A stretch of 64,000 nucleotides of DNA from a virus: the IMG/VR virus record IMGVR_UViG_3300042691_053984, positions 62,001 to 126,000 of that record; one strand, given 5' to 3'. Made by a program: the position numbers and the translations under genes. The stretch's first letter is position 1, and every line of letters begins with the position of its first letter. The notes beneath the pieces were generated by a model. It was not told the DNA's origin, searched no databases, and worked only from the letters and a program-made list of their open reading frames with translations. Positions 50,916 through 64,000 of the stretch are shown here, piece by piece.

Positions 50916-51233
50916 ATGAAAAACAAGATTACGATCAATAGGCTCAAGACTATCATTTCTGAAGAAATTTCTTCCCTGGTAAGTGAAGACTCCTCTAAGT
51001 CAAACAAGGTTGCAAAACTTGTGACAAGCGCAAGCAAACTTTTGACCGCGCTTGAGTCGTTCAGGGACAGCGTCTCAGATAGAAAAGCCATAGATGCCGT
51101 GTCGCCACACCTGGATTCTTTGATGACCATAATGGATCAGATGGTTGATCACGCCTCAACTTACGTAGACGATCCGAAAGTTGAGCCAAAAAAGGTTATC
51201 TTAAAAGTTTCAAAAGAAAAGGGCGTGATGTAA
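50916..51233 (+). CDS. Small tagged protein between terminase and portal
   Basis: A 105-residue helical protein. The start has AGAGGA eight bases upstream. Its N-terminus INRLKTIISEEISSLVSE follows the L-K-x-I-I-x-x-E helix pattern seen in several genes of the head module. The middle is a helical stretch with alanine, leucine and serine and the end is lysine-rich. In T4 the tail sheath and tail tube genes lie in this position, but this protein is not one. It may be a head-internal protein. Function unknown. Confidence 0.6.
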   Translation: MKNKITINRLKTIISEEISSLVSEDSSKSNKVAKLVTSASKLLTALESFRDSVSDRKAIDAVSPHLDSLMTIMDQMVDHASTYVDDPKVEPKKVILKVSKEKGVM

Positions 51234-54146: not shown

Positions 54147-54800
54147 ATGCTTATCGGTGAAAAACGCCTCTTAGACACATACGACGTCTTTGATTACAAA
54201 ATCGTGACTGAGGTCGTGAAACCTGCAACAGTGGTTGAAGACTCCTCGGGTAACAGGATCGAAGTGCCGGCCGTTAAAAAGGTATATATGAAGGGTGTCC
54301 TGCAGAAGGCGGATACCTTGAATCAGAACGGACGAATCTATCCTTTGCACCTCCTAGAGAGAGAGGTCAGAAATTACCAGAAGTTCATCATTGAGAACCG
54401 AGCCTTGGGTGAACTAGATCACCCAGATTCCTCTGTCGTCAATTTAAAGAATGTGTCTCACATCATTCGTGAGGCCCACCTTGAAAATGGGGTGGTATAT
54501 GGTACAGCTGAAATTCTTGACACACCTTCTGGAAAGATCCTGCAGTCTCTTGTGGAGAGTGGTGTGAAACTTGGCATCTCATCTCGAGGAGTGGGCTCAA
54601 CAAAGAAGCAGGGAGAATATCACATAGTCCAAGACGACTTTCAGTTGATTTGTTGGGACTATGTGTCGGAGCCATCAACACCAGGTGCTTTCATGATCCC
54701 CGAGGGGAAGAGGATTGCCGAGGCAGAACTGAAGAAAATCTTCAATAAGAGTGACAGGATTGACAGGGCTCTAAACGATATTTTGTCTTGCAAGTTTTAA
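54147..54800 (+). CDS. 21: Prohead protease (gp21-like)
   Basis: A 217-residue serine protease of the herpes/T4 prohead protease fold. NGRIYP, ALGELDHP (His92) and LGISSRGVGS (Ser 145-146) are the catalytic blocks of T4 gp21, and VSEPSTPGAFMIP is the strand and loop near the end. T4 gp21 cleaves prohead proteins after glutamate in (L/I)-x-E motifs and thereby matures the head and the internal proteins. A ribosome site (GGAG) precedes the ATG. The presence of this protease is what makes the LxE-type cleavage sites in neighbouring proteins meaningful. Confidence 0.94.
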   Translation: MLIGEKRLLDTYDVFDYKIVTEVVKPATVVEDSSGNRIEVPAVKKVYMKGVLQKADTLNQNGRIYPLHLLEREVRNYQKFIIENRALGELDHPDSSVVNLKNVSHIIREAHLENGVVYGTAEILDTPSGKILQSLVESGVKLGISSRGVGSTKKQGEYHIVQDDFQLICWDYVSEPSTPGAFMIPEGKRIAEAELKKIFNKSDRIDRALNDILSCKF

Positions 54801-54817: not shown

Positions 54818-55291
54818 ATGAATAACGGCATAAAAATGACTAGATCACACCTTAAGTCTCTCGTGAAGGAATGCCTCGTTGAAATCCTTCAAGAAGGTCT
54901 GGGGTCTGTGGTGCCCACAAGACCAAACGAACATGTCGTAGAGAGCAGACTGCCACAAGGCAAAAACGCTCAACAGGTGCAAAGACCTCGTAGCGCAAGT
55001 CTTGATACCCCCTTGGTTTCAAAAAAACCACAATTATCAAAATCACTCATTGAAACCATTAGGCACGAGTCTAACGGAAATTCAATAATGGCTGACATCC
55101 TTGCCGATACCGCGACAACCACTCTACCAAAAATGTTATCAGGGGGTGATTCTTCCAACATGTCACATTCTACAAGGATGTCGCAGGTGGAACACTTCAA
55201 TGGAACACCTGAGCAGGTCTTCGGAGACGAAGTTGCATCAAGGTGGGCAAATCTTGCATTTATGGACGTGTCAAACAGAAAAATGTCGTGA
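54818..55291 (+). CDS. Unknown head-module protein with N-terminal helix and RWANLA motif
   Basis: A 157-residue protein. N-terminal HLKSLVKECLVEILQEGLG follows the L-K-x-L-V-x-E helix pattern. Near the C-terminus is ASRWANLAFMDVSNRK, a variant of the RW(A/Q)RLAG tag found at the end of the scaffold protein and of two proteins near 62-63 kb. The middle is disordered (proline-, serine- and lysine-rich). AGGA precedes the first ATG. It follows the protease gene and is probably part of the prohead core, but the function is not shown. Confidence 0.6.
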   Translation: MNNGIKMTRSHLKSLVKECLVEILQEGLGSVVPTRPNEHVVESRLPQGKNAQQVQRPRSASLDTPLVSKKPQLSKSLIETIRHESNGNSIMADILADTATTTLPKMLSGGDSSNMSHSTRMSQVEHFNGTPEQVFGDEVASRWANLAFMDVSNRKMS

Positions 55292-55333
55292 TGGCACCTA
55301 ATTAGAGAAATGTAGTGTCAAATGGAGAACAAA

Positions 55334-55579
55334 ATGAGACTTACGCCAAAAATGTTAAAAAAGTTGATCCTCGATGAGGCAGGCAAGTTTGGAAAGATGC
55401 AGGACGTTGAAGACGTGGAGGCACGTGAAGTTGATGCAGACGAATTTGCTGATTCTCTTGAGAAAAAGATTGATTATGTAAAGGCTTTGAAGTTGGAAGA
55501 AAGCAGGTTACGTAAGCGCTTGGCAAAGATTGCTGAGACGCGTACCCGAGTCGTAAAATCTATGTCAGACACAATCTAA
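55334..55579 (+). CDS. Small head-module protein with N-terminal helix tag
   Basis: An 81-residue protein from the ATG at 55334, which has GGAG six bases upstream; the frame opens at 55322. The N-terminus MRLTPKMLKKLILDEAGKFG aligns with those of the genes at 60991 (MRMSSLQLKRLIESE) and 63237 (MRISPQTLNRIITSE). The leader before the ATG (GGAGAACAAA) resembles those of the same genes. The rest is helical and charged with an acidic middle and a basic end, like T4 prohead core proteins gp67 or gp68 in size and position. No direct match can be claimed. Confidence 0.6.
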   Translation: MRLTPKMLKKLILDEAGKFGKMQDVEDVEAREVDADEFADSLEKKIDYVKALKLEESRLRKRLAKIAETRTRVVKSMSDTI

Positions 55580-55590
55580 GGGGGGATCAC

Positions 55591-56109
55591 ATGCCGGGCA
55601 AGGGTAAATACACAACGTACAATTCAAATTCTAGTCCGAGAAAAACGTTTCTTGCAAGTCTGTTTAAAGGCAGTCCCTATGCAGACAAAGGACCGGAACA
55701 GGTCAGGCAAGAAGTTGTTGCGTTGGGAAATAGTATCCTGCGTGCAGGAGAGACGGGAGGAGTGGCAGCGGGTGATGGTCAGATGTTCCCCAAGGGGGTT
55801 GATCTCACTTACGCAGGCAGCAATCTGCCTTATGGTCCTCCTGACGGAGACGTAAAGGTTGATGCAGCAGGCGCACCAATGAACGCGTTCGTGCCCGACG
55901 TTTCTTCACCAGGACCAGGCAAGACAGATGGACTTGATAAGGTTCCAGGATTAAATCCGAAGTTAAAACCAGAAGAATACAAGCCGGGATACGTTGAATC
56001 TGCGAACACGAGACTTCCTGTCGAATCTAGTGCTCGTGTTTACAGCGCTAACGTTCTCGGAGACGACAATCTGTTCAATACTACTGAACCTGTGCAGATA
56101 CCTGTTTAA
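55591..56109 (+). CDS. Unknown head-module protein
   Basis: A 172-residue protein that is rich in glycine, proline and asparagine (segments SNLPYGPPDGDVKVDAAGAP and GPGKTDGLDKVPGLNPK), so mostly disordered or extended. It starts MPGKGKYTTYNSNSS after a GGGGG ribosome-site-like stretch and lies between the core-type protein and the scaffold. The C-terminus is hydrophobic-polar without motif. It is likely a minor head or core component by position. Confidence 0.55.
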   Translation: MPGKGKYTTYNSNSSPRKTFLASLFKGSPYADKGPEQVRQEVVALGNSILRAGETGGVAAGDGQMFPKGVDLTYAGSNLPYGPPDGDVKVDAAGAPMNAFVPDVSSPGPGKTDGLDKVPGLNPKLKPEEYKPGYVESANTRLPVESSARVYSANVLGDDNLFNTTEPVQIPV

Positions 56110-56154
56110 ATTAAATCTGATTGATAATTATTTCGAAAAATCGTGGGGAAAAAT

Positions 56155-57879
56155 ATGTCGAAACAACTCTACGAAGAAGCGTTGGCTGATGTTAAGAAGC
56201 TAAAGGAAGTCGCTGAGGATAATGCGAAGCGAGCCTTGGTTGAAGCAGTGACCCCGCGAATTCGTGACCTGATAGAGAGGGAACTGTTGAGGGAATACAA
56301 TGAGATGGACGGAGATGCAGTGGGTGCGCCCGGCTCCGTTCCTCCTCACGGTGACCTAATGACAGATGACTATGAATCACTTTCCGGACCGGAAGAGGGT
56401 GGCAAAGTTACCCTTGACCTTGACGATCTGATGGCCGACACAGGTGGTTCTCCTGTCGGCCCACCGATGTTTGGCGGAGATTACGCCATGGACGACATGG
56501 TCTATGGGCTCGACACTGAATCGGTGAAGATGTTGCTGCCTGTCATAAATTCAGTTTCATTGAACGAGAATTTTGAGGAAAAACTGTCGCAACTGGAAGA
56601 AAGCATCAAGAATATCAAATATTCTGTGTACTTTCTAAAGGAGTCAAAGGATGGGGCTTCATCCGTACCAAAGTTGATTTCTCTGGTTGAAGATATGTAT
56701 TCACACCTGCAGGAGAACCTTGCGTCTTCCGGCAAGAAGAAAAAGTATGAACTGACATTAGAAAGTTACTATCAACAACTCAACAAGCTCCAGGAGCAAA
56801 ATATGCGCAGAAATAGATCTAGAAGGTTATTTGAGGATGACAGCGAAGGCGGAGGAAAGAAGGAACTTTCCTTCCTTGTCAAGTTTGGGGATCAGTTCCC
56901 TGAAGAGGCCTTGGACGATGTTGAAATTGAAGTTACACCCGGTGGAGACATGGGTGGAGATGACTTCGGCGACGACGAAGACATGGGCGACGAAGACATG
57001 GGCGACGAAGAGATGGGCGATGATGAGGACATGGGCGACATGGGTGACGACGAAGACATGGGCGACATGGGAGATGAAGACATGGGTGACGAAGGTGGCG
57101 ATGAAGAAGAGCCACAAGAGGAAGGTCAATACATGGAATCCCGAGTTCTCAGGAACAATCTTGTCGTTGAGATCGATGAGGGAATGCTTCGTCGTGAGAT
57201 CGGTCGCATGAAGACTCTTCGCGAGGCTCGTGCACGTCATCAGCGCAGACTCAATGAAGCCCGTAGGCTCAGGTCGCAGCGCAGAAATCTGCGTGAATCT
57301 GCACCGGTTCCTTCCACGAAGGGACACGGCCCCGGAAAGACAGTCAACAGCTTTGGCGGCGCTAAGTCCAAGGGAGACCCCTGGCTTGATCAGGAACTCA
57401 CCCTTGAGATCGACGAGATGGAACTCGAAAATGACGAGATGGAGACCACTCAGTCGCAGCAAATGGAATCATATCGCAGAAATTCGAGATTGGCTTCTCG
57501 CAATGGTGCACGTCACAGTGACGCACCCAGCAGGCACGCGGTTCAGGCCGAATCAGTACTCCGCGCAAAGTTGGCAGAATCGAATCTGTTCAACGCAAAG
57601 TTGATTTACGCGAACAAGCTGCTCCAGAATGAGTCGCTTTCGAGGAGGCAGAAGGCACAGGTCATCGAGCGCCTTGATGAAGCTTCAAACCTGCGTGAAG
57701 TCAAGCTTGTCTATGAGAGCCTGACCAAGGCGTTGGCAGGAACCTCACGCCCATTGTCGGAGTCGGCTGATCGCAAGGTCATCGGATCTTCGTCCATGGC
57801 AACCCGTCCGGCGGCAACGAACCTCAATGAAGGATTTGAGACCGATCGTTGGGCACGTCTGGCCGGTATCAACAAGTGA
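56155..57879 (+). CDS. 22: Prohead scaffold / core protein (gp22 position) with acidic tract and RWARLAG tail
   Basis: A 574-residue protein just before the major capsid gene, where T4 places the scaffold gp22. The ATG at 56155 follows GGGG by six bases; the frame opens at a GTG at 56143. The sequence is highly charged and helical, with coiled-coil-like stretches (EEALADVKKLKEVAEDNAKR), an acidic repeat (residues about 272-320, D-D-x-D-M-G), and arginine-rich helices (RMKTLREARARHQRRLNEAR). The end DRWARLAGINK contains the RWxRLAG tag also seen in other proteins. Twice the size of T4 gp22. It should drive prohead assembly and be degraded by gp21. Confidence 0.75.
   Translation: MSKQLYEEALADVKKLKEVAEDNAKRALVEAVTPRIRDLIERELLREYNEMDGDAVGAPGSVPPHGDLMTDDYESLSGPEEGGKVTLDLDDLMADTGGSPVGPPMFGGDYAMDDMVYGLDTESVKMLLPVINSVSLNENFEEKLSQLEESIKNIKYSVYFLKESKDGASSVPKLISLVEDMYSHLQENLASSGKKKKYELTLESYYQQLNKLQEQNMRRNRSRRLFEDDSEGGGKKELSFLVKFGDQFPEEALDDVEIEVTPGGDMGGDDFGDDEDMGDEDMGDEEMGDDEDMGDMGDDEDMGDMGDEDMGDEGGDEEEPQEEGQYMESRVLRNNLVVEIDEGMLRREIGRMKTLREARARHQRRLNEARRLRSQRRNLRESAPVPSTKGHGPGKTVNSFGGAKSKGDPWLDQELTLEIDEMELENDEMETTQSQQMESYRRNSRLASRNGARHSDAPSRHAVQAESVLRAKLAESNLFNAKLIYANKLLQNESLSRRQKAQVIERLDEASNLREVKLVYESLTKALAGTSRPLSESADRKVIGSSSMATRPAATNLNEGFETDRWARLAGINK
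56971..57111 (+). repeat. Tandem acidic repeat within the scaffold gene
   Basis: Short units of the form GACATGGGCGACGAAGA recur with small changes (GAAGACATGGGC, GAAGAGATGGGC, GAGGACATGGGC). They encode D/E-D-M-G-D repeats. The tract is low complexity at both DNA and protein level and is a likely site of length variation between related phages through slippage or recombination. Confidence 0.8.
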
Positions 57880-57896
57880 TGCATTGAACAGTCGAT

Positions 57897-57904
57897 TATA
57901 ATAA
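57897..57904 (+). promoter_or_regulatory. Late-promoter-like motif upstream of the major capsid gene
   Basis: TATAATAA matches the T4 late promoter TATAAATA at six of eight positions and lies 37 bases before the capsid start, followed by a leader with CGGAG eight bases from the ATG. T4 gene 23 also has its own late promoter. The motif could also pass for a bacterial -10 element; no good -35 is placed. Confidence 0.4.
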
Positions 57905-57933
57905 CCAACAAACAAACACACGGAGTTTTTAAG

Positions 57934-59832
57934 ATGAAGCACTTTACACTAGATCAGTTAACCCAGGGTATTCGCGAGAAGCACATCGGTGCTGAGCGTG
58001 CCCGCCTCGTGGAGAAGTGGAGCCGCACAGGCCTCCTCCGCGGCCTCGACGGCGTTCGCCGTGAGACAATGTCGCAACTCCTGGAGAATCAGGCAGCTCA
58101 GGTCCTCAAGGAGTCCAACTCACTCTCGACCGGTGGCGGTAACGTCGCCTCGTCAGGTCAGATCCAGGGCTTCAGCAATATCGCGTTCCCGATCGTTCGT
58201 CGTGTGTTCGGTGGCCTCGTCGCCAACGAGCTCGTCTCGATCCAGCCGATGTCGCTCCCCTCGGGCCTCATTTTCTACCTAGATTACACCTACGGCTCGA
58301 ACGTCGGTGGTGACGCCGGTGTGGGTCTCTCGAATTCAGCAACGTTCGAGACGTACCAGCGTGGTCAGTCCATCTACAACAACCCGACCGGTAAGGGCAT
58401 CCGCTCAGGATCGCTCGCCACGGGTGGTATGTACGACCTCGTCAACACGGGCTACACCAAGGTCCACTCGGGTTCGCTGGCCCTTGCCACTGCATCGATC
58501 GGTGCATGGACGGCAAATGGAGACGTCTGGTCTGTCCATGGAATCGTCAAGTCGGTAACCGATCTTTCGGGCACAAACATTCGCCAGCTCCAGTTTGACC
58601 CACAGGTCGAAAACGATGTCTCTGACAACGCCCTTGACGTCTCCTTCGTTGTGGTTTCAACCTCTGACCTGCAGGCAGTCCTGCCCAAGGTTGACCTCCT
58701 CGCGGTCGATCAGATTGCCCTCTTTGGTCTCGGCACCAACGGCGGCGCGACAGCATGGGGTGAGACATATCAGTCAGGTAAGGGTGTGCTCAACCTGCGT
58801 CGTTTGAACCGCCGTGGTAACTGGACGGGTTCAGTGTTCACACCTGATCCGCTCAATGGAAACCACGTTCTGTTCGTTGTCAAGCTTACAAACACCGGGG
58901 CCACCCCCACGGTGCAGGTCGCAGATCGAAACACCCTCAAGGTCTCGGCCGCATTGACAGACGCCCTCGAGATCGACTCGACGTCAGGTGCAGCGCTGAC
59001 GGTTCCCTCGTTCGAGTCTGACTTCGGCTCGTCGCCCACTGCGGCGATCCCCGAGATCGACATCAAGATCGAGTCGATCGCCATCACGGCCACGACCCGT
59101 AAGTTGCGCGCTCGCTGGTCGCCGGAACTCGCACAGGACCTCAACGCCTATCACTCGATGGACGCCGAGGTTGAGCTCACGTCGATCCTCTCAGAGCAGA
59201 TCGCCCTCGAGATCGACCGCGAGATCCTGAGCGACCTCGTGACGACAGCCAACGGTGCCAACTACTACTGGTCACGCAGCCCAGGCCGCTTCCTCAACAA
59301 GGTGACGGGAGTTCGTCAGAACCTCGCCGACTCGTTGCAGATCGGACCGCAGTTCACCGGTACGGTTCGTGAGTGGTACGAGACCCTCGTTGAGACGGTC
59401 ATCGACGTTGCCAACACAATCCACCGTAAGACACTTCGCGGCTCGGCCAACTTCCTCGTCACGTCGCCCGACGTCTGCACCATCCTCGAGTCATCGGTCC
59501 TCTACAAGCCGAAGTTCTCGATCGACGGTGAGGGTCAGGTCGGTTCGCCGTTCACAATCGGCGCAGAGGCAATCGGCACAGTCTCGAACCGCTTCACGGT
59601 CTATAAGGACCCCTACTTCCCACGTAACAAGATCCTCATCGGTTACAAGGGCGGCAGCTACCTCGAGACCGGCTATGTGTATGCTCCTTACGTTCCGCTC
59701 ATCGTGACACCCACGATCTTCGCTCCTGAGGACTTCACACCGCGTAAGGGCGTCATGACAAGGTACGGCAAGAAGGTCATCCGTAGCGACTTTTACGGGA
59801 CAGTGACTGTTCTCGACATGAACGTGATATGA
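57934..59832 (+). CDS. 23: Major capsid protein (gp23-like)
   Basis: A 632-residue precursor. RARWSPELAQDLNAYHSMDA with AEVELTSILSEQIALEIDRE matches the hallmark (W-x-P-E-L-A-Q-D-L...A-E-x-E-L) of T4 gp23, and the middle holds the IQPMSLPSGLIFYLDYTYGS strand region. The N-terminal 60 residues end in VLKE|SN, a consensus gp21 cleavage site (LxE) at residue 60, against 65 in T4 gp23, so the mature protein would be about 572 residues. The gene is strongly GC-rich and uses C-ending codons, unlike its neighbours, which fits very high expression. It follows the scaffold gene by 54 bases. Confidence 0.95.
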   Translation: MKHFTLDQLTQGIREKHIGAERARLVEKWSRTGLLRGLDGVRRETMSQLLENQAAQVLKESNSLSTGGGNVASSGQIQGFSNIAFPIVRRVFGGLVANELVSIQPMSLPSGLIFYLDYTYGSNVGGDAGVGLSNSATFETYQRGQSIYNNPTGKGIRSGSLATGGMYDLVNTGYTKVHSGSLALATASIGAWTANGDVWSVHGIVKSVTDLSGTNIRQLQFDPQVENDVSDNALDVSFVVVSTSDLQAVLPKVDLLAVDQIALFGLGTNGGATAWGETYQSGKGVLNLRRLNRRGNWTGSVFTPDPLNGNHVLFVVKLTNTGATPTVQVADRNTLKVSAALTDALEIDSTSGAALTVPSFESDFGSSPTAAIPEIDIKIESIAITATTRKLRARWSPELAQDLNAYHSMDAEVELTSILSEQIALEIDREILSDLVTTANGANYYWSRSPGRFLNKVTGVRQNLADSLQIGPQFTGTVREWYETLVETVIDVANTIHRKTLRGSANFLVTSPDVCTILESSVLYKPKFSIDGEGQVGSPFTIGAEAIGTVSNRFTVYKDPYFPRNKILIGYKGGSYLETGYVYAPYVPLIVTPTIFAPEDFTPRKGVMTRYGKKVIRSDFYGTVTVLDMNVI

Positions 59833-59863
59833 TATGAATGTTATCTAATACGATAACATAATC

Positions 59864-59892
59864 AAGGGCCACTTTTTAGTGGCCCTTTTTTA
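59864..59892 (+). terminator. Strong rho-independent terminator after the capsid gene
   Basis: AAGGGCCACT (59864-59873) pairs perfectly with AGTGGCCCTT (59878-59887) around a four-base T loop, followed by TTTTT. This ten-base-pair stem is the strongest terminator in the window and isolates the capsid transcript from the endonuclease gene downstream. Confidence 0.95.
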
Positions 59893-59929
59893 GTTTACAT
59901 TTAATAGTTGCTGTTTATTATATAGTTAT

Positions 59930-60874
59930 ATGTTAACTATGCTAGACAATAAATGTAAAATATGCGAAAAAGAATTTGGCTCCCTAGAGTCAGTCTTCAG
60001 GCACATCAAGGTCCACGAAATAAAAGCTAAAGAGTACGTCCTAAAGTGGAAGCACAATGGTATTGCACCGCTATGTTCTTGCGGATGTGGGGGAGAAACT
60101 AATTGGAATATAGCTTTAAAGGATTTTGCAAAGTTTATTCAAGGACATCATGCACACGGAAGAGCTAAGTCTGATGACGAAAAGAGAAGAATCGGAGAAA
60201 AAAATAGGGCCAATATGAAGGCGTGGATGGCAAGACATCCAGATGTAGCAAAGAAAAGAGCCGAAAGCATGGCAAGCATTAGAACTCCTGATTTTGAAGA
60301 ACGTCGCATTAATTCAACACGCAAAGCCTACGAGTCAATGACCGCAGAAGACAAGCAAAAGTTCTCTGATCATTTTAAAAGACTTTGGGAGGATGGGACA
60401 CTAACAGAAGCCCATGTTAAATCTAGCGAAACGTTCAAGCGTCGTTTTGCAAATGGAGAATATGATTTTGCTGAGCGAAATGAGAAGATCTCCGCTATCA
60501 TAACCCAGTTATATCTTGATGGCGGATTCGAGTGGTCTACAGGCCAATACATTTCTGTGAAATCTGGAAAGACATTCAACTACAGGTCTTCATGGGAGCT
60601 TGAATTAATGAGGCAGTTGGATGAAGACGCAGTCGTTGAGCTTTGGAATTATGAGCCCTTTTCGATACCTTACCTCTTCGAGGGCAAGGTTCGTAGATAT
60701 GTCCCAGACTTTCATATTGTAACTGACGATGGGCAAGACGTGCTTGTAGAAGTTAAGCCTGCTAGCCTTAGTGGCACAGAGAAAAACTCTTGTAAACGGT
60801 TAGCCGCTGTGGAATTTTGTCAAAAAAATGGGTGGAGATATCTTGAGTGGAAGCCCGGCGATAAAATACCGTGA
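59930..60874 (+). CDS. Free-standing (homing-like) endonuclease with gp4-type nuclease domain
   Basis: A 314-residue protein. N-terminal C2H2-type zinc finger (CKICEKEFGSLESVFRHIKV then H) and a CSCGCGG cluster, a middle basic helical region with NUMOD-like stretches (KSDDEKRRIGEKNRANMKAW), and a C-terminal PD-(D/E)XK domain: KTFNYRSSWELELMRQLDED, RRYVPDFHIVTDDG and VLVEVKPASLS. That last domain is clearly related to the gp4-like protein at 41496 (KEFKFRSGWE, YYPDF, LVEIKPKK). Layout suggests a mobile endonuclease recognising DNA by its zinc finger and helices. It is flanked by terminators and follows the capsid gene, a typical site for phage homing genes. ATG at 59930 or 59939; no ribosome site seen. 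Confidence 0.72.
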   Translation: MLTMLDNKCKICEKEFGSLESVFRHIKVHEIKAKEYVLKWKHNGIAPLCSCGCGGETNWNIALKDFAKFIQGHHAHGRAKSDDEKRRIGEKNRANMKAWMARHPDVAKKRAESMASIRTPDFEERRINSTRKAYESMTAEDKQKFSDHFKRLWEDGTLTEAHVKSSETFKRRFANGEYDFAERNEKISAIITQLYLDGGFEWSTGQYISVKSGKTFNYRSSWELELMRQLDEDAVVELWNYEPFSIPYLFEGKVRRYVPDFHIVTDDGQDVLVEVKPASLSGTEKNSCKRLAAVEFCQKNGWRYLEWKPGDKIP

Positions 60875-60877
60875 TTA

Positions 60878-60920
60878 GCTTTTGCCTAGCTTGAGGCTAC
60901 CGAAAGGCAGCTTTTTTTTT
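60878..60920 (+). terminator. Probable terminator after the endonuclease gene
   Basis: Following the endonuclease stop, GCT and GCCT (60878-60887) can pair with AGGC and AGC (60905-60911) as a bulged stem; a second option pairs GCCT with AGGC at 60894-60897. A run of nine T starts at 60912. The stem is imperfect but the T tract is convincing. Confidence 0.6.
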
Positions 60921-60990
60921 ATTTGGAGTGTATTATTTGTTTTTTCTAATTAGTTATTTACGAATGTCACGCGTGACGGGAGAAGCACAC

Positions 60991-62124
60991 ATGAGAATGA
61001 GTTCTTTGCAGCTAAAGAGATTGATAGAGTCTGAGGTAAAGGGTGCCATGGAGTCGAAGAGACGGACAAAGAGACGCCCAATGAGAGAGGCTTCGTTCAG
61101 GCCTAGCTTGGTCTCGCTAATTTTTGAAGAGTTAAGCGACGCAGAGACTGAAAATTTGATTAGTAAAAATATCACACAGCCCTTGTCATCGACAGCAGAC
61201 AAGACGACAGTAGAAAAGATAGTTCAGTTTTTAAACTCAAGTGAGGGTCAAGACCAAAAAGTAAGAGATAAGCTGGCGTCTGGTGCAAATGACGGTAACC
61301 CATCTGACGAAGTTATGGAAGTTGGGGTAGAGACATTGCCTGTCTTGAAACTCAAACCCTCTCAGTCACAAATTGGTTTGCCTAATTCAATCGGGTTTGC
61401 GTTTACTTCAAAGGGGAAAAAAGTGGGGGCCTTGGAGGCCGCGTTGAAGGGAAATGTGAACTCAACGGAAATTGTCGCGTGTGGCGACGGCATTGATAAT
61501 AACTTTATCATCGATGGTCACCACAGGTGGTCGTCGGCAATCGCCGTAAATCCAGCTGCAAATATCACCGTCTCTTTCATTAAAGGAGACGATGCATTCA
61601 AAGTGCTGTCAATATGCCAGCTTGCCATTGCTACTTACAAGCCAGGTAAACTACCATCTAACACTTCTGAACCTGACACAAACTTACTTACCATGAGCGC
61701 CGACGCAATCGCACAGTACGCAAAAGACAACGTCGGAAAAGTCGTTGATGAAAAGGCAGGCTCCCCGCTTTTGACTGACGATATCTTAGACTTCCTTGCC
61801 GGGCAAGGCTATGGAGGCGCATCAGCGACAGATGACAGAGACACGAAGCTGGATAAGATCTGCACCAAGATCGGAGAGAACTGCAAAAAAGTGCCAACAC
61901 CTGGTGACGCGCCTGACAGAGTTCATATGCCGCAGTTTGATCCAAAATCGGGCGGTCCGACGCTTGATCAAGTTAAAGATAAATTTACGGGCGGGCAATT
62001 AAACTTTAAAGATCCTGTTGGTTCATCAGGCGGAGGAAAGCAGCAGGTCACTGCGGAATCTTGGGATCGCCAAGGTGCAGTCGTCGTAGAGCGCTGGCAG
62101 CGGCTTGCTGGATTGATCAAGTAA
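60991..62124 (+). CDS. Tagged ParB/Srx-like protein (DGHHRW motif), putative capsid cargo
   Basis: A 377-residue protein from the ATG at 60991 (GGGAGA eight bases upstream; the frame opens at 60928). N-terminus MRMSSLQLKRLIESE is the shared helix tag and contains LIE, a possible gp21 site. The middle holds a ParB/sulfiredoxin-like motif DNNFIIDGHHRWSSAIAVNP, related to the paralogue at 63237. The C-terminal 15 residues, VVVERWQRLAGLIK, are nearly identical to the end of the next gene and similar to that of the scaffold. The DGHHRW loop would bind nucleotide or phosphate. A role in the virion or after injection is inferred from tags and position. Confidence 0.65.
   Translation: MRMSSLQLKRLIESEVKGAMESKRRTKRRPMREASFRPSLVSLIFEELSDAETENLISKNITQPLSSTADKTTVEKIVQFLNSSEGQDQKVRDKLASGANDGNPSDEVMEVGVETLPVLKLKPSQSQIGLPNSIGFAFTSKGKKVGALEAALKGNVNSTEIVACGDGIDNNFIIDGHHRWSSAIAVNPAANITVSFIKGDDAFKVLSICQLAIATYKPGKLPSNTSEPDTNLLTMSADAIAQYAKDNVGKVVDEKAGSPLLTDDILDFLAGQGYGGASATDDRDTKLDKICTKIGENCKKVPTPGDAPDRVHMPQFDPKSGGPTLDQVKDKFTGGQLNFKDPVGSSGGGKQQVTAESWDRQGAVVVERWQRLAGLIK
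62074..62121 (+). repeat. Direct repeat, copy A (encodes RWQRLAGLIK tag)
   Basis: The 48 bases encoding the C-terminal tag of the gene ending at 62124 are about four-fifths identical to 63148-63195, including the identical run CGCTGGCAGCG. They end at the stop codon here. Many differences are at third codon positions, so the peptide is under selection while the DNA drifts. Confidence 0.85.
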
Positions 62125-62139
62125 GATTGGAGAAAATAC

Positions 62140-63201
62140 ATGAGATACAACAACAACAGAAATAGTGAGCTTTTTAGATTGCGTCAGACGATCAGGAGAA
62201 TCATCAAGGAAGAGGCGGAGAACGTAATCCCTGGAGATGCGTCGCCTGATAAGCAGGTTCACGTGTTTGACTTCGATGACACTCTCGGTGAGACGTCGAA
62301 CGCCAACGGGATCATGTTGCATCAGGACGGGAAACCCGTTCACAAGTCAGAAGGAGAGGCTCGTGATTGGGCAAAGTCTATGGGGCTGACAAACTCTGAC
62401 TTCCTTCCGCCTGAAGTTGCACAGATCTCCAACAGAGACGGTGGCTATGCGATCTACGTGACGTCAAAAGCGCTAGCTAAAGTGCAGAACCTCTTTAAAC
62501 CCTCGAAGACAAAGCAGGCGATCACGGGTGTGAGCGAGCCTCCAGCAAAGGGTCCATCTATCTTAATTGACTTTACACCGTCGGCAGACGTAAGTATAGA
62601 AACGACTAAACCAATCGACTCGACTATCGACAGGTTGAAGGACGCAAATTCGAAGGGATCAAAGACCATCGTCATCACTGCGAGGCAGGCCGACGGCGAA
62701 GGCACAAACTTTAAAGGCGAAAAAGTCGGAGCGACAAATGCCAAAGACATGAATGCATTTCTATCGAAGCAGGGTGCCAAGCCGACTGACGGCGTATTGG
62801 GAGTCGTGGGTCAAAACAAGGGAGATGCTATCATCGACAAGTACCTGAAGTCAGGGGAGCCTCCCGAAGAGATACACTTCTACGACGACTTGGAGAAAAA
62901 CACGAGTGAGGTCGAGGCAGCCGTAGGAAAACAAGTACCATCAGAGCTTTTTGTCTACGGCCCAGGAGAATTTGCCCACGGTCAGGCAAGCGCGGATAGT
63001 CCTCGGGCGAAATTTCCCAAGGACGAAGCTTCAGAAGAAGACTGGAAGAAGCGTGACACAGATCGTCGTGCAGCAAACAAGGCAGCTCGTGCAGCTGCAG
63101 ATGCAGCCGCAGCTGCACAAGCTCAAAACTCGAGCCGCTTCAGGGACGGTGCGGTCATGGTGGAACGCTGGCAGCGCCTCGCAGGTTTAATCAAGGATTG
63201 A
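62140..63201 (+). CDS. Tagged HAD-like phosphatase-type protein, putative capsid cargo
   Basis: A 353-residue protein. HVFDFDDTLGETSN is the HAD nucleophile motif I (D-x-D-x-T), ITARQADGEG holds motif II, KGDAIIDKY the motif III lysine, and HFYDDLEKN motif IV acidic residues, so it looks like a complete HAD hydrolase fold (possibly a phosphatase or nucleotidase). N-terminus LRQTIRRIIKEEAENV follows the helix tag pattern. The C-terminus has an alanine-rich linker (about residues 302-330) and then VMVERWQRLAGLIKD. It lies 15 bases after the preceding tagged gene with GGAGA upstream. Substrate unknown; delivery in the virion is inferred. Confidence 0.7.
   Translation: MRYNNNRNSELFRLRQTIRRIIKEEAENVIPGDASPDKQVHVFDFDDTLGETSNANGIMLHQDGKPVHKSEGEARDWAKSMGLTNSDFLPPEVAQISNRDGGYAIYVTSKALAKVQNLFKPSKTKQAITGVSEPPAKGPSILIDFTPSADVSIETTKPIDSTIDRLKDANSKGSKTIVITARQADGEGTNFKGEKVGATNAKDMNAFLSKQGAKPTDGVLGVVGQNKGDAIIDKYLKSGEPPEEIHFYDDLEKNTSEVEAAVGKQVPSELFVYGPGEFAHGQASADSPRAKFPKDEASEEDWKKRDTDRRAANKAARAAADAAAAAQAQNSSRFRDGAVMVERWQRLAGLIKD
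63148..63195 (+). repeat. Direct repeat, copy B (encodes RWQRLAGLIK tag)
   Basis: Second copy of the element described at 62074-62121. It lies just before the last codon of the HAD-like gene; this protein has one extra residue (Asp) after the tag. The two copies are about 1 kb apart in the same orientation. Confidence 0.85.
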
Positions 63202-63236: not shown

Positions 63237-64000
63237 ATGAGAATCAGCCCACAGACGTTGAATAGAATCATCACATCAGAGATCAGGTCACTAATGGAGT
63301 CAAAGAAAAGAGTGACCAGAGGTAAAGGAAGACCCAGTCTATATTCTGCTTTATTTGAAGATGCAGACCCAGGTAAGATCGATCCGAATAGATTCCCACT
63401 AGAGTTGGGATCTGTGAATATAGATTCAGCAAAAAAATTCGTGTCAGGTGGTCTCAACGATGGCGATAAAAAAGATGATGTGATCAGCGCAAAAGTAAAC
63501 GCAAGTTTGGGCACTGTCAAAGACTTAAAACCGTCTCAGACTTCTATGAACCTAGGCAAAGCTTGGTCATTTGCTCTTAGCATGATTAACGGCACAATGC
63601 CTGGTTCTGATGGCCCTGGAGGGAACCTTGATGCCTTTGTTTCTAGCGATAACTACATTATGGATGGACACCATAGGTGGATCGCAAGCTGGATGGTCGA
63701 TCCTGTTGCTGAGATGAAAGGCCATAAAGTGAATATGCCTGGCGAAAAGCTTGTCGCAGTTTTAAACGCAGTCACAAAGGGTCTACATGGTATTGAAAAA
63801 GGAAATCCATCAACAGGCGGTTTTGACCAGTTTAAAGACAAGCAAAAGATGACAGATGCCTGTAAGGCTGGGATTGAAGCAGGCCCGATTAATGGTAATG
63901 TTGAAGATTTGAAAAAGAAATTAAAAGATTGGACGGGCACGCAAGACGATGCCGGGCTCGTTGACGCGACTGTTGAAAAAGTCATGGACAACTTGTCGTC
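63237..64000 (+). CDS. Tagged ParB/Srx-like protein (DGHHRW motif), partial, paralogue of 60991
   Basis: The open frame runs from the ATG at 63237 (AGGAGA seven bases upstream) past the right edge; 254 codons are visible. N-terminus MRISPQTLNRIITSEIRSLM aligns with the gene at 60991 and 55334 and contains LME. DLKPSQTSMNLGKAWSFALS and DNYIMDGHHRWIASWMVDPV match KPSQSQIGLPNSIGFAF and DNNFIIDGHHRWSSAIAVNP of the paralogue. The C-terminus is outside the window, so whether it ends in the RWQRLAG tag cannot be told. Upstream, TTGATATATATATAAGCA spans the stop of the previous gene. Confidence 0.7.
   Translation, partial: MRISPQTLNRIITSEIRSLMESKKRVTRGKGRPSLYSALFEDADPGKIDPNRFPLELGSVNIDSAKKFVSGGLNDGDKKDDVISAKVNASLGTVKDLKPSQTSMNLGKAWSFALSMINGTMPGSDGPGGNLDAFVSSDNYIMDGHHRWIASWMVDPVAEMKGHKVNMPGEKLVAVLNAVTKGLHGIEKGNPSTGGFDQFKDKQKMTDACKAGIEAGPINGNVEDLKKKLKDWTGTQDDAGLVDATVEKVMDNLS

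Follow-up and report, generated by a model that had tools for sequence, protein, structure and literature searches.

A terminal peptide shared by the scaffold and candidate cargo proteins of gp22/gp23-type phages is a probable address for the prohead core

The DNA analyzed here, referred to as the window, is a stretch of 64,000 nucleotides of the IMG/VR virus record IMGVR_UViG_3300042691_053984 (positions 62,001 to 126,000). Genes were called mechanically as open reading frames, and the tags were read directly from the sequence. The head-gene region contains the following features, in window coordinates:

54147–54800, + strand: prohead protease of the gp21 type (Peptidase_S77), probably the enzyme responsible for processing (Pfam PF03420, E 1.7e-27; phrog_207 head maturation protease, E 1.1e-49)
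54818–55291, + strand: 157-aa protein between protease and scaffold, with RWANLAF from 55241 ([KR]WAxLAF motif in relatives)
56143–57879, + strand: gp22-position scaffold, acidic and mostly helical, directly 5' of gp23
57823–57831, + strand: LNE, a match to the gp21-type cleavage consensus [LI]xE shortly before the scaffold tail, conserved in relatives
57844–57876, + strand: scaffold C-terminal tag DRWARLAGINK
57934–59832, + strand: gp23-type major capsid protein precursor (Pfam PF07068, E 1.1e-75)
58006–58047, + strand: LVEKWSRTGLLRGL, an element separate from the tag and conserved at the N-terminus of gp23, recognized from relatives and from counterparts in T4 and P-SSM2
58105–58113, + strand: LKE followed by S, the predicted cleavage site at the end of the capsid propeptide, conserved in relatives
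60991–62124, + strand: ParB/Srx-like candidate cargo 1 (DGHHRW), assigned from family alignment A1 and from the AF2 model of its paralogue with Foldseek
62089–62121, + strand: cargo 1 tag ERWQRLAGLIK
62140–63201, + strand: HAD-superfamily candidate cargo 2 (DFDDTL motif; Pfam DUF2608, E 1.4e-6; phrog_415 polynucleotide kinase, E 2e-4)
63163–63198, + strand: cargo 2 tag ERWQRLAGLIKD
63237–64000 and past the window edge (record positions 125237–126253), + strand: second ParB/Srx-like protein, candidate cargo 3, with C-terminus VMVERWQRLAGLVR (sequence and AF2 model)

The order of protease (54147–54800), scaffold (56143–57879) and capsid (57934–59832) genes is that expected of a gp22-type scaffold. 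The protein itself, whose homologues point to the ATG at 56155 as its start, has the matching character, with a long acidic stretch and a helical AF2 model (mean pLDDT 59.9). Comparison with known gp22 family models yielded no Pfam match, and PHROGs returned only phrog_38441 (function not assigned, E 0.023).

In the window genome, the scaffold, the ParB/Srx-like protein and the HAD protein all carry a C-terminal [ED]RWxRLAG[IL]. The tails reported in the preliminary description of this DNA are present and lie exactly at the C-termini: the scaffold terminates in FETDRWARLAGINK, the ParB-like protein in AVVVERWQRLAGLIK and the HAD protein in AVMVERWQRLAGLIKD. A fourth copy, EVMVERWQRLAGLVR, forms the C-terminus of the second ParB-like protein, whose gene starts at 63237 and whose stop codon lies 253 bases beyond the window edge. 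A degenerate DNA pattern for R-W-x-R-L-A-G finds four matches in the complete 132,858-bp record, all of which fall at these C-terminal tails, and the backwards control pattern finds none. The tails of the first ParB-like protein and the HAD protein differ in 9 of 15 codons, 8 of them synonymously, which indicates that the peptide rather than the DNA is conserved and bears out the proposal that it is under selection. The two ParB-like proteins are homologues of each other (27–28% identity in family alignments), and the HAD assignment rests on a VFDFDDTL motif together with the DUF2608 match, which is above the Pfam family cut-off. Sequence searches of Pfam, PHROGs, NCBIfam and the PDB provided little information on cargo function. 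Between the capsid gene and the first ParB-like gene, a 314-aa ORF (window 59930–60874) has CxxC/HxxxH residues near its start.

Structure models offer a view of how the peptide may be presented. The AF2 model of the second ParB-like protein has a confident core (residues 46–300), a disordered linker and a C-terminal helix (residues 324–337); its top three Foldseek matches in the PDB are ParB proteins (6sdk and 5k5d twice), all of them weak (E 0.1–0.34, probability 0.28–0.51). The scaffold model, which is helical and of low confidence, has a disordered linker (residues 535–562) followed by a short C-terminal helix (residues 563–573). In these models, the tag is a helix behind a disordered linker, in cargo and scaffold alike.

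To follow the scaffold tail in other phages, we used 80 IMG/VR loci picked by capsid similarity alone. The gene 5' of gp23 ends in [EDS]RWA[RKQ]LAG[IL] in nearly all of these loci that include it, so that nearly every scaffold in this capsid-selected set of gp22/gp23 phages is tagged, as a linkage of the motif to gp22 predicts. The 71 tagged scaffold relatives form a single BLAST cluster, and in 63 of 65 scaffolds [LI]xE, most often as LNEG, precedes the tag at a nearly fixed position. More distant gp23 phages retain a scaffold tail of the form R[WMFLI]xxLAG[IL]; R[WMFLI]xxLAG is found at the scaffold C-terminus in 16 of 19 distant records (the exceptions are G032, G037 and the T4-like G049) and likewise in Mel-JY01, immuto and RM378. 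The scaffold is probably the ancestral location of the peptide R-[W/M/F/L]-x-x-L-A-G-[I/L]. The corresponding T4 proteins were rejected as tag bearers: the resemblance of gp22 (VYAKVASRF) and gp21 (AYMALAEAMKKAL) is no more than loose, and the C-terminus of T4 Alt is unlike the gp22 tail.

Two further proteins of the locus had been linked to the tag. The capsid precursor was thought to carry a possible counterpart, LVEKWSRTGLLRGL, near its N-terminus, an interpretation that the comparison does not support. EKWSRTGLL is a different peptide, one that gp23 proteins, that of T4 included (LLNKWKPLLEG), conserve in their N-termini; KW with GLL occurs in all 68 relatives counted, and P-SSM2 also has a counterpart. 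The 157-aa protein at 54818 does contain ASRWANLAF about 16 residues from its end, as described, and this motif is a related form, KWAxLAF, rather than the tag itself. Across the 80 capsid loci, the KWAxLAF form was counted 36 times, each time toward the C-terminal end of one ORF. The protein has no family match above cut-off in Pfam or PHROGs, and it may be a minor core protein whose motif is a diverged version of the tag.

Carriers of the tag fall into about 12 BLAST clusters, some singletons among which may be remote relatives. The clusters comprise the scaffold, the ParB-like and HAD proteins, a cluster containing an L147 protein that shows GPPAAGKG, several large proteins of no assigned family and one protein in which a peptidoglycan-binding domain was recognized. 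The description of the tag as a feature of otherwise unrelated proteins stands, with the qualification that the two ParB-like proteins are related. In 30 tag-containing records, which were chosen partly for presence of the tag, 45 of 46 pattern matches lie within 16 residues of the stop codon and the backwards control has no match. The sole non-terminal match is in a 310-aa protein (L174, 1326–2258), where VERWQKLAG lies about 65 residues before the stop; the start of this protein resembles that of a 414-aa protein of L145, in which the tag is terminal. The DNA pattern for ERWQ[KR]LAG is C-terminal in 0 of 43 classifiable cases from bacterial genomes versus 50 of 68 in viral contigs, 2 of the 50 being short FAG ORFs that are probably spurious. 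With 45 of 46 genome-wide matches terminal and the controls at zero, chance does not account for the shared tails. Two look-alikes were set aside as coincidences. One is a VERWQRFAG- or VERWQQFAG-like stretch about 30 residues before the end of 419–457-aa proteins, presumably DNA methylases; the other lies inside the portal-position protein and resembles KIDTLAGGQN.

Tagging of cargo is far less widespread than tagging of scaffolds. A looser-motif census of 17 records (2,387 ORFs), several of which were selected for tags, counted 29 C-terminal cases, 7 N-terminal ones and 21 that are internal; 15 of the C-terminal cases are non-scaffold proteins, compared with 0.96 expected. Of 9 long records selected by capsid and scanned, only 2 show C-terminally tagged cargo, and in three genomes chosen blind to the tag (G042, G044 and G047) the scaffold is the only protein with the strict motif at its C-terminus. 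A cargo-tag 20-mer has no match in 50,697 cultured-phage records. C-terminal tagging of cargo is therefore limited to a minority of related genomes. A consistent match between scaffold and cargo in the W/M/F/L residue looked promising and was abandoned on account of exceptions such as G034 (F and W) and immuto (W and M).

Alignment A1 of the ParB family was assembled from tagged proteins, so the constancy of the tag in it is not evidence. Relatives of the ParB and HAD proteins were searched after removal of their tails. By a loose test, 9 of 20 HAD relatives have the C-terminal tag; one more (L351) carries it at the N-terminus, and two (L340 and L349) have variant LAGI tails. Among ParB relatives, few have the R-x-x-x-LAG tag and the others bear different terminal peptides that vary by lineage, in classes defined by loose regular expressions and reading by eye. 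The N-termini in some lineages are MKSFxEF or MKHIKTYQEFINED-like and resemble the capsid targeting sequence (CTS) of T4, five homologues (L263, L265, L268, L269 and L270) begin with an LMExWRxF-like or MExWRxF peptide, and homologues elsewhere have LRxIIxxE-like peptides at either terminus. In G049, a CTS-like ParB protein occurs alongside a T4-type scaffold that lacks the LAG tail. A second N-terminal motif, approximately LRxIIxxE, is also seen within the window, in head-region proteins at 50916, 54818, 55322, 60991, 62140 and 63237, tagged cargo among them.

The tag also occurs at the opposite end of proteins. Among the matches listed in a scan for RMQKLAG (at least 81), at least 58 are C-terminal, at least 21 N-terminal and at least 2 internal; 18 of the 21 N-terminal cases listed run directly into [LI]xE, as in RMQKLAGIITES. 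The order of the two elements is thus reversed: [LI]xE precedes the tag in scaffolds and comes after it in the N-terminal cases. An RM-type scaffold occurs together with RM-type N-terminal proteins in two genomes (G072 and G076). The cultured phage immuto (MW353175), the only match of the N-terminal peptide queries among cultured phages, encodes two small proteins, immuto26A_41 and immuto26A_188, that begin MKKQILSEQFxRMQxLAGIITES; a scan of 150 of its 160.4 kb found these two N-terminal tags and no second C-terminal one. Three ORFs of L130 (2269–2538, 7749–8285 and 8673–9458) have an RW tag at or near the start (e.g., MTRFSKERWRRLAGLLNEGS and MTKILKERWQKLAGILKEQ) followed by L/I-x-E, in a record that yielded no gp23. 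The N-terminally tagged HAD homologue of L351 (5962–7251) has the peptide MDAVINRWCKLAGILQEQ, and the scaffold and ParB-like proteins of the same record are tagged at their C-termini.

These positions bear on proteolytic processing. T4 gp21 cleaves after L/I-X-E, according to PMC9026906, and the gp23 precursor has [LI][KR]E followed by S, A, V or T at the expected end of the propeptide in 70 of 70 relatives. Among 54 tagged proteins classed as non-scaffold, a set that includes a few scaffolds, only 11 have [LI]xE at a distance of 3–12 residues upstream of the tag, and 34 have I or L two positions ahead of the residue that precedes RW. The cargo proteins of the window have VVE or MVE at the putative cleavage position. 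Cleavage of C-terminally tagged cargo is uncertain because [LI]xE is so infrequent there and because the window cargo has these variants.

With the peptide observed to be shared, terminal, conserved, linked to gp22 and gp23 and placed next to the cleavage consensus, we consider it likely that the tag is a removable prohead-core targeting peptide of gp22/gp23-type phages, common to scaffold and cargo and usable at either end of a protein. In some lineages, ParB/Srx-like, HAD and several large proteins bear the peptide on a flexible C-terminal tether; in others, it sits at the N-terminus. During assembly, the tethered helix would bind the partner of the scaffold's own tail, be it capsid shell, portal, scaffold core or protease, and tagged proteins would become part of the prohead core. 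Cuts by the gp21-type protease at adjacent L/I-x-E sites would afterwards leave cargo free inside the head for delivery with the DNA. We infer the shared binding partner, packaging, cleavage and delivery from the arrangement of the peptides. Loading of tagged enzymes into the core, as originally suggested, remains the best explanation, and the tag is the scaffold's conserved tail; C-terminal cargo tags are confined to a minority of relatives. For the broad gp23 group, we lean slightly toward a wider version in which the scaffold tail is a portable, end-independent cargo-loading code, C-terminal behind a protease site or N-terminal before one, and ParB-like and HAD families move between lineages by exchanging address peptides.

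Other readings of the same observations were weighed. The tagged genes are neighbors in the window genome, so their tails could reflect recent DNA exchange or coincidence with no common function. This reading is already contradicted by the synonymous codon differences, by conservation of the tail in distant phages and by the terminal placement of the matches against a bacterial control with no C-terminal case, and we give it practically no weight. C-terminal peptides containing LA can act as degrons (ssrA ends in LAA), and the tag might clear scaffold and helper proteins late in infection. We regard this as very improbable: the tail usually runs beyond LAG into charged residues, N-terminal versions occur on the opposite side of a cleavage consensus, and T4-type prohead scaffolds are degraded by the prohead protease.

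That protease figures in another alternative, in which the peptide is the docking site of the gp21-type enzyme on its substrates and not itself a packaging signal. Such a role would fit the juxtaposition of peptide and L/I-x-E in scaffolds and N-terminal cases, as well as the co-occurrence of the peptide with the protease gene. We nonetheless consider it unlikely, given that the capsid protein lacks the peptide despite its predicted cleavage site in every relative and that ParB homologues of other lineages swap the peptide for other terminal peptides instead of simply losing it. About as unlikely, or a shade more so, is binding of the peptide to the portal or another vertex component, which would gather proteins for ejection or for contact with a membrane and not in the core. 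A scaffold tail could touch the portal, and several tagged proteins are large and of no assigned family; the T4 scaffold, however, is a high-copy core protein (576 copies; PMC9026906), and use of its tail at a single vertex would leave most copies idle.

The closest parallel to the proposed core-targeting peptide is the CTS of T4, a short, removable N-terminal peptide that is sufficient for head entry (PMC9026906). Like the tag, the CTS is a short terminal peptide on otherwise unrelated proteins (IPI, IPII, IPIII and Alt), and by analogy with the account in PMC9026906 the tag would be expected to bring its carriers to the prohead core, there to be cut off at L/I-x-E by a protease of the gp21 type. 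The CTS-like N-termini of some ParB homologues from other phages provide a further connection. The two peptides differ in sequence and position: the CTS occupies about 10–20 N-terminal residues, whereas the tag is C-terminal in the window cargo and its clade and N-terminal in other lineages only, and ERWQRLAGLIK is unrelated by eye to the IPIII CTS of T4. The tag also differs in that it is a peptide of the type found at the C-terminus of the scaffold itself. We infer that it would work like the T4 CTS without belonging to it by sequence or position.

T4 Alt and the SPN3US protease gp245 are head proteins with C-terminal propeptides that the prohead protease likewise cuts, as is proposed for the tag, but at about 63–64 residues these propeptides are much longer. 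A role in bringing the protease to the core has been suggested for the gp245 propeptide (PMC7411985), and the role of the Alt propeptide is left as an open question in PMC5694885; what such flanking propeptides of head proteins do is an open question in T4 and giant phages alike. The consulted part of the literature on targeting and scaffolds, mainly work on T4, P1, P22 and SPN3US, does not describe the tag, and four exact 7-mers of it were not found in the open-access literature searched. If scaffold and cargo do share the peptide as an address, it would provide a sequence rule that predicts which proteins of unknown function are packaged in uncultured phages, as well as a candidate for a short tag with which to load proteins into heads. 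Scaffold-derived or C-terminal peptides load cargo into protein shells in two other settings, P22 scaffolding-protein cargo fusions and encapsulin cargo-loading peptides. Unlike the tag, the P22 fusions are engineered, and encapsulin shells are not phage heads.
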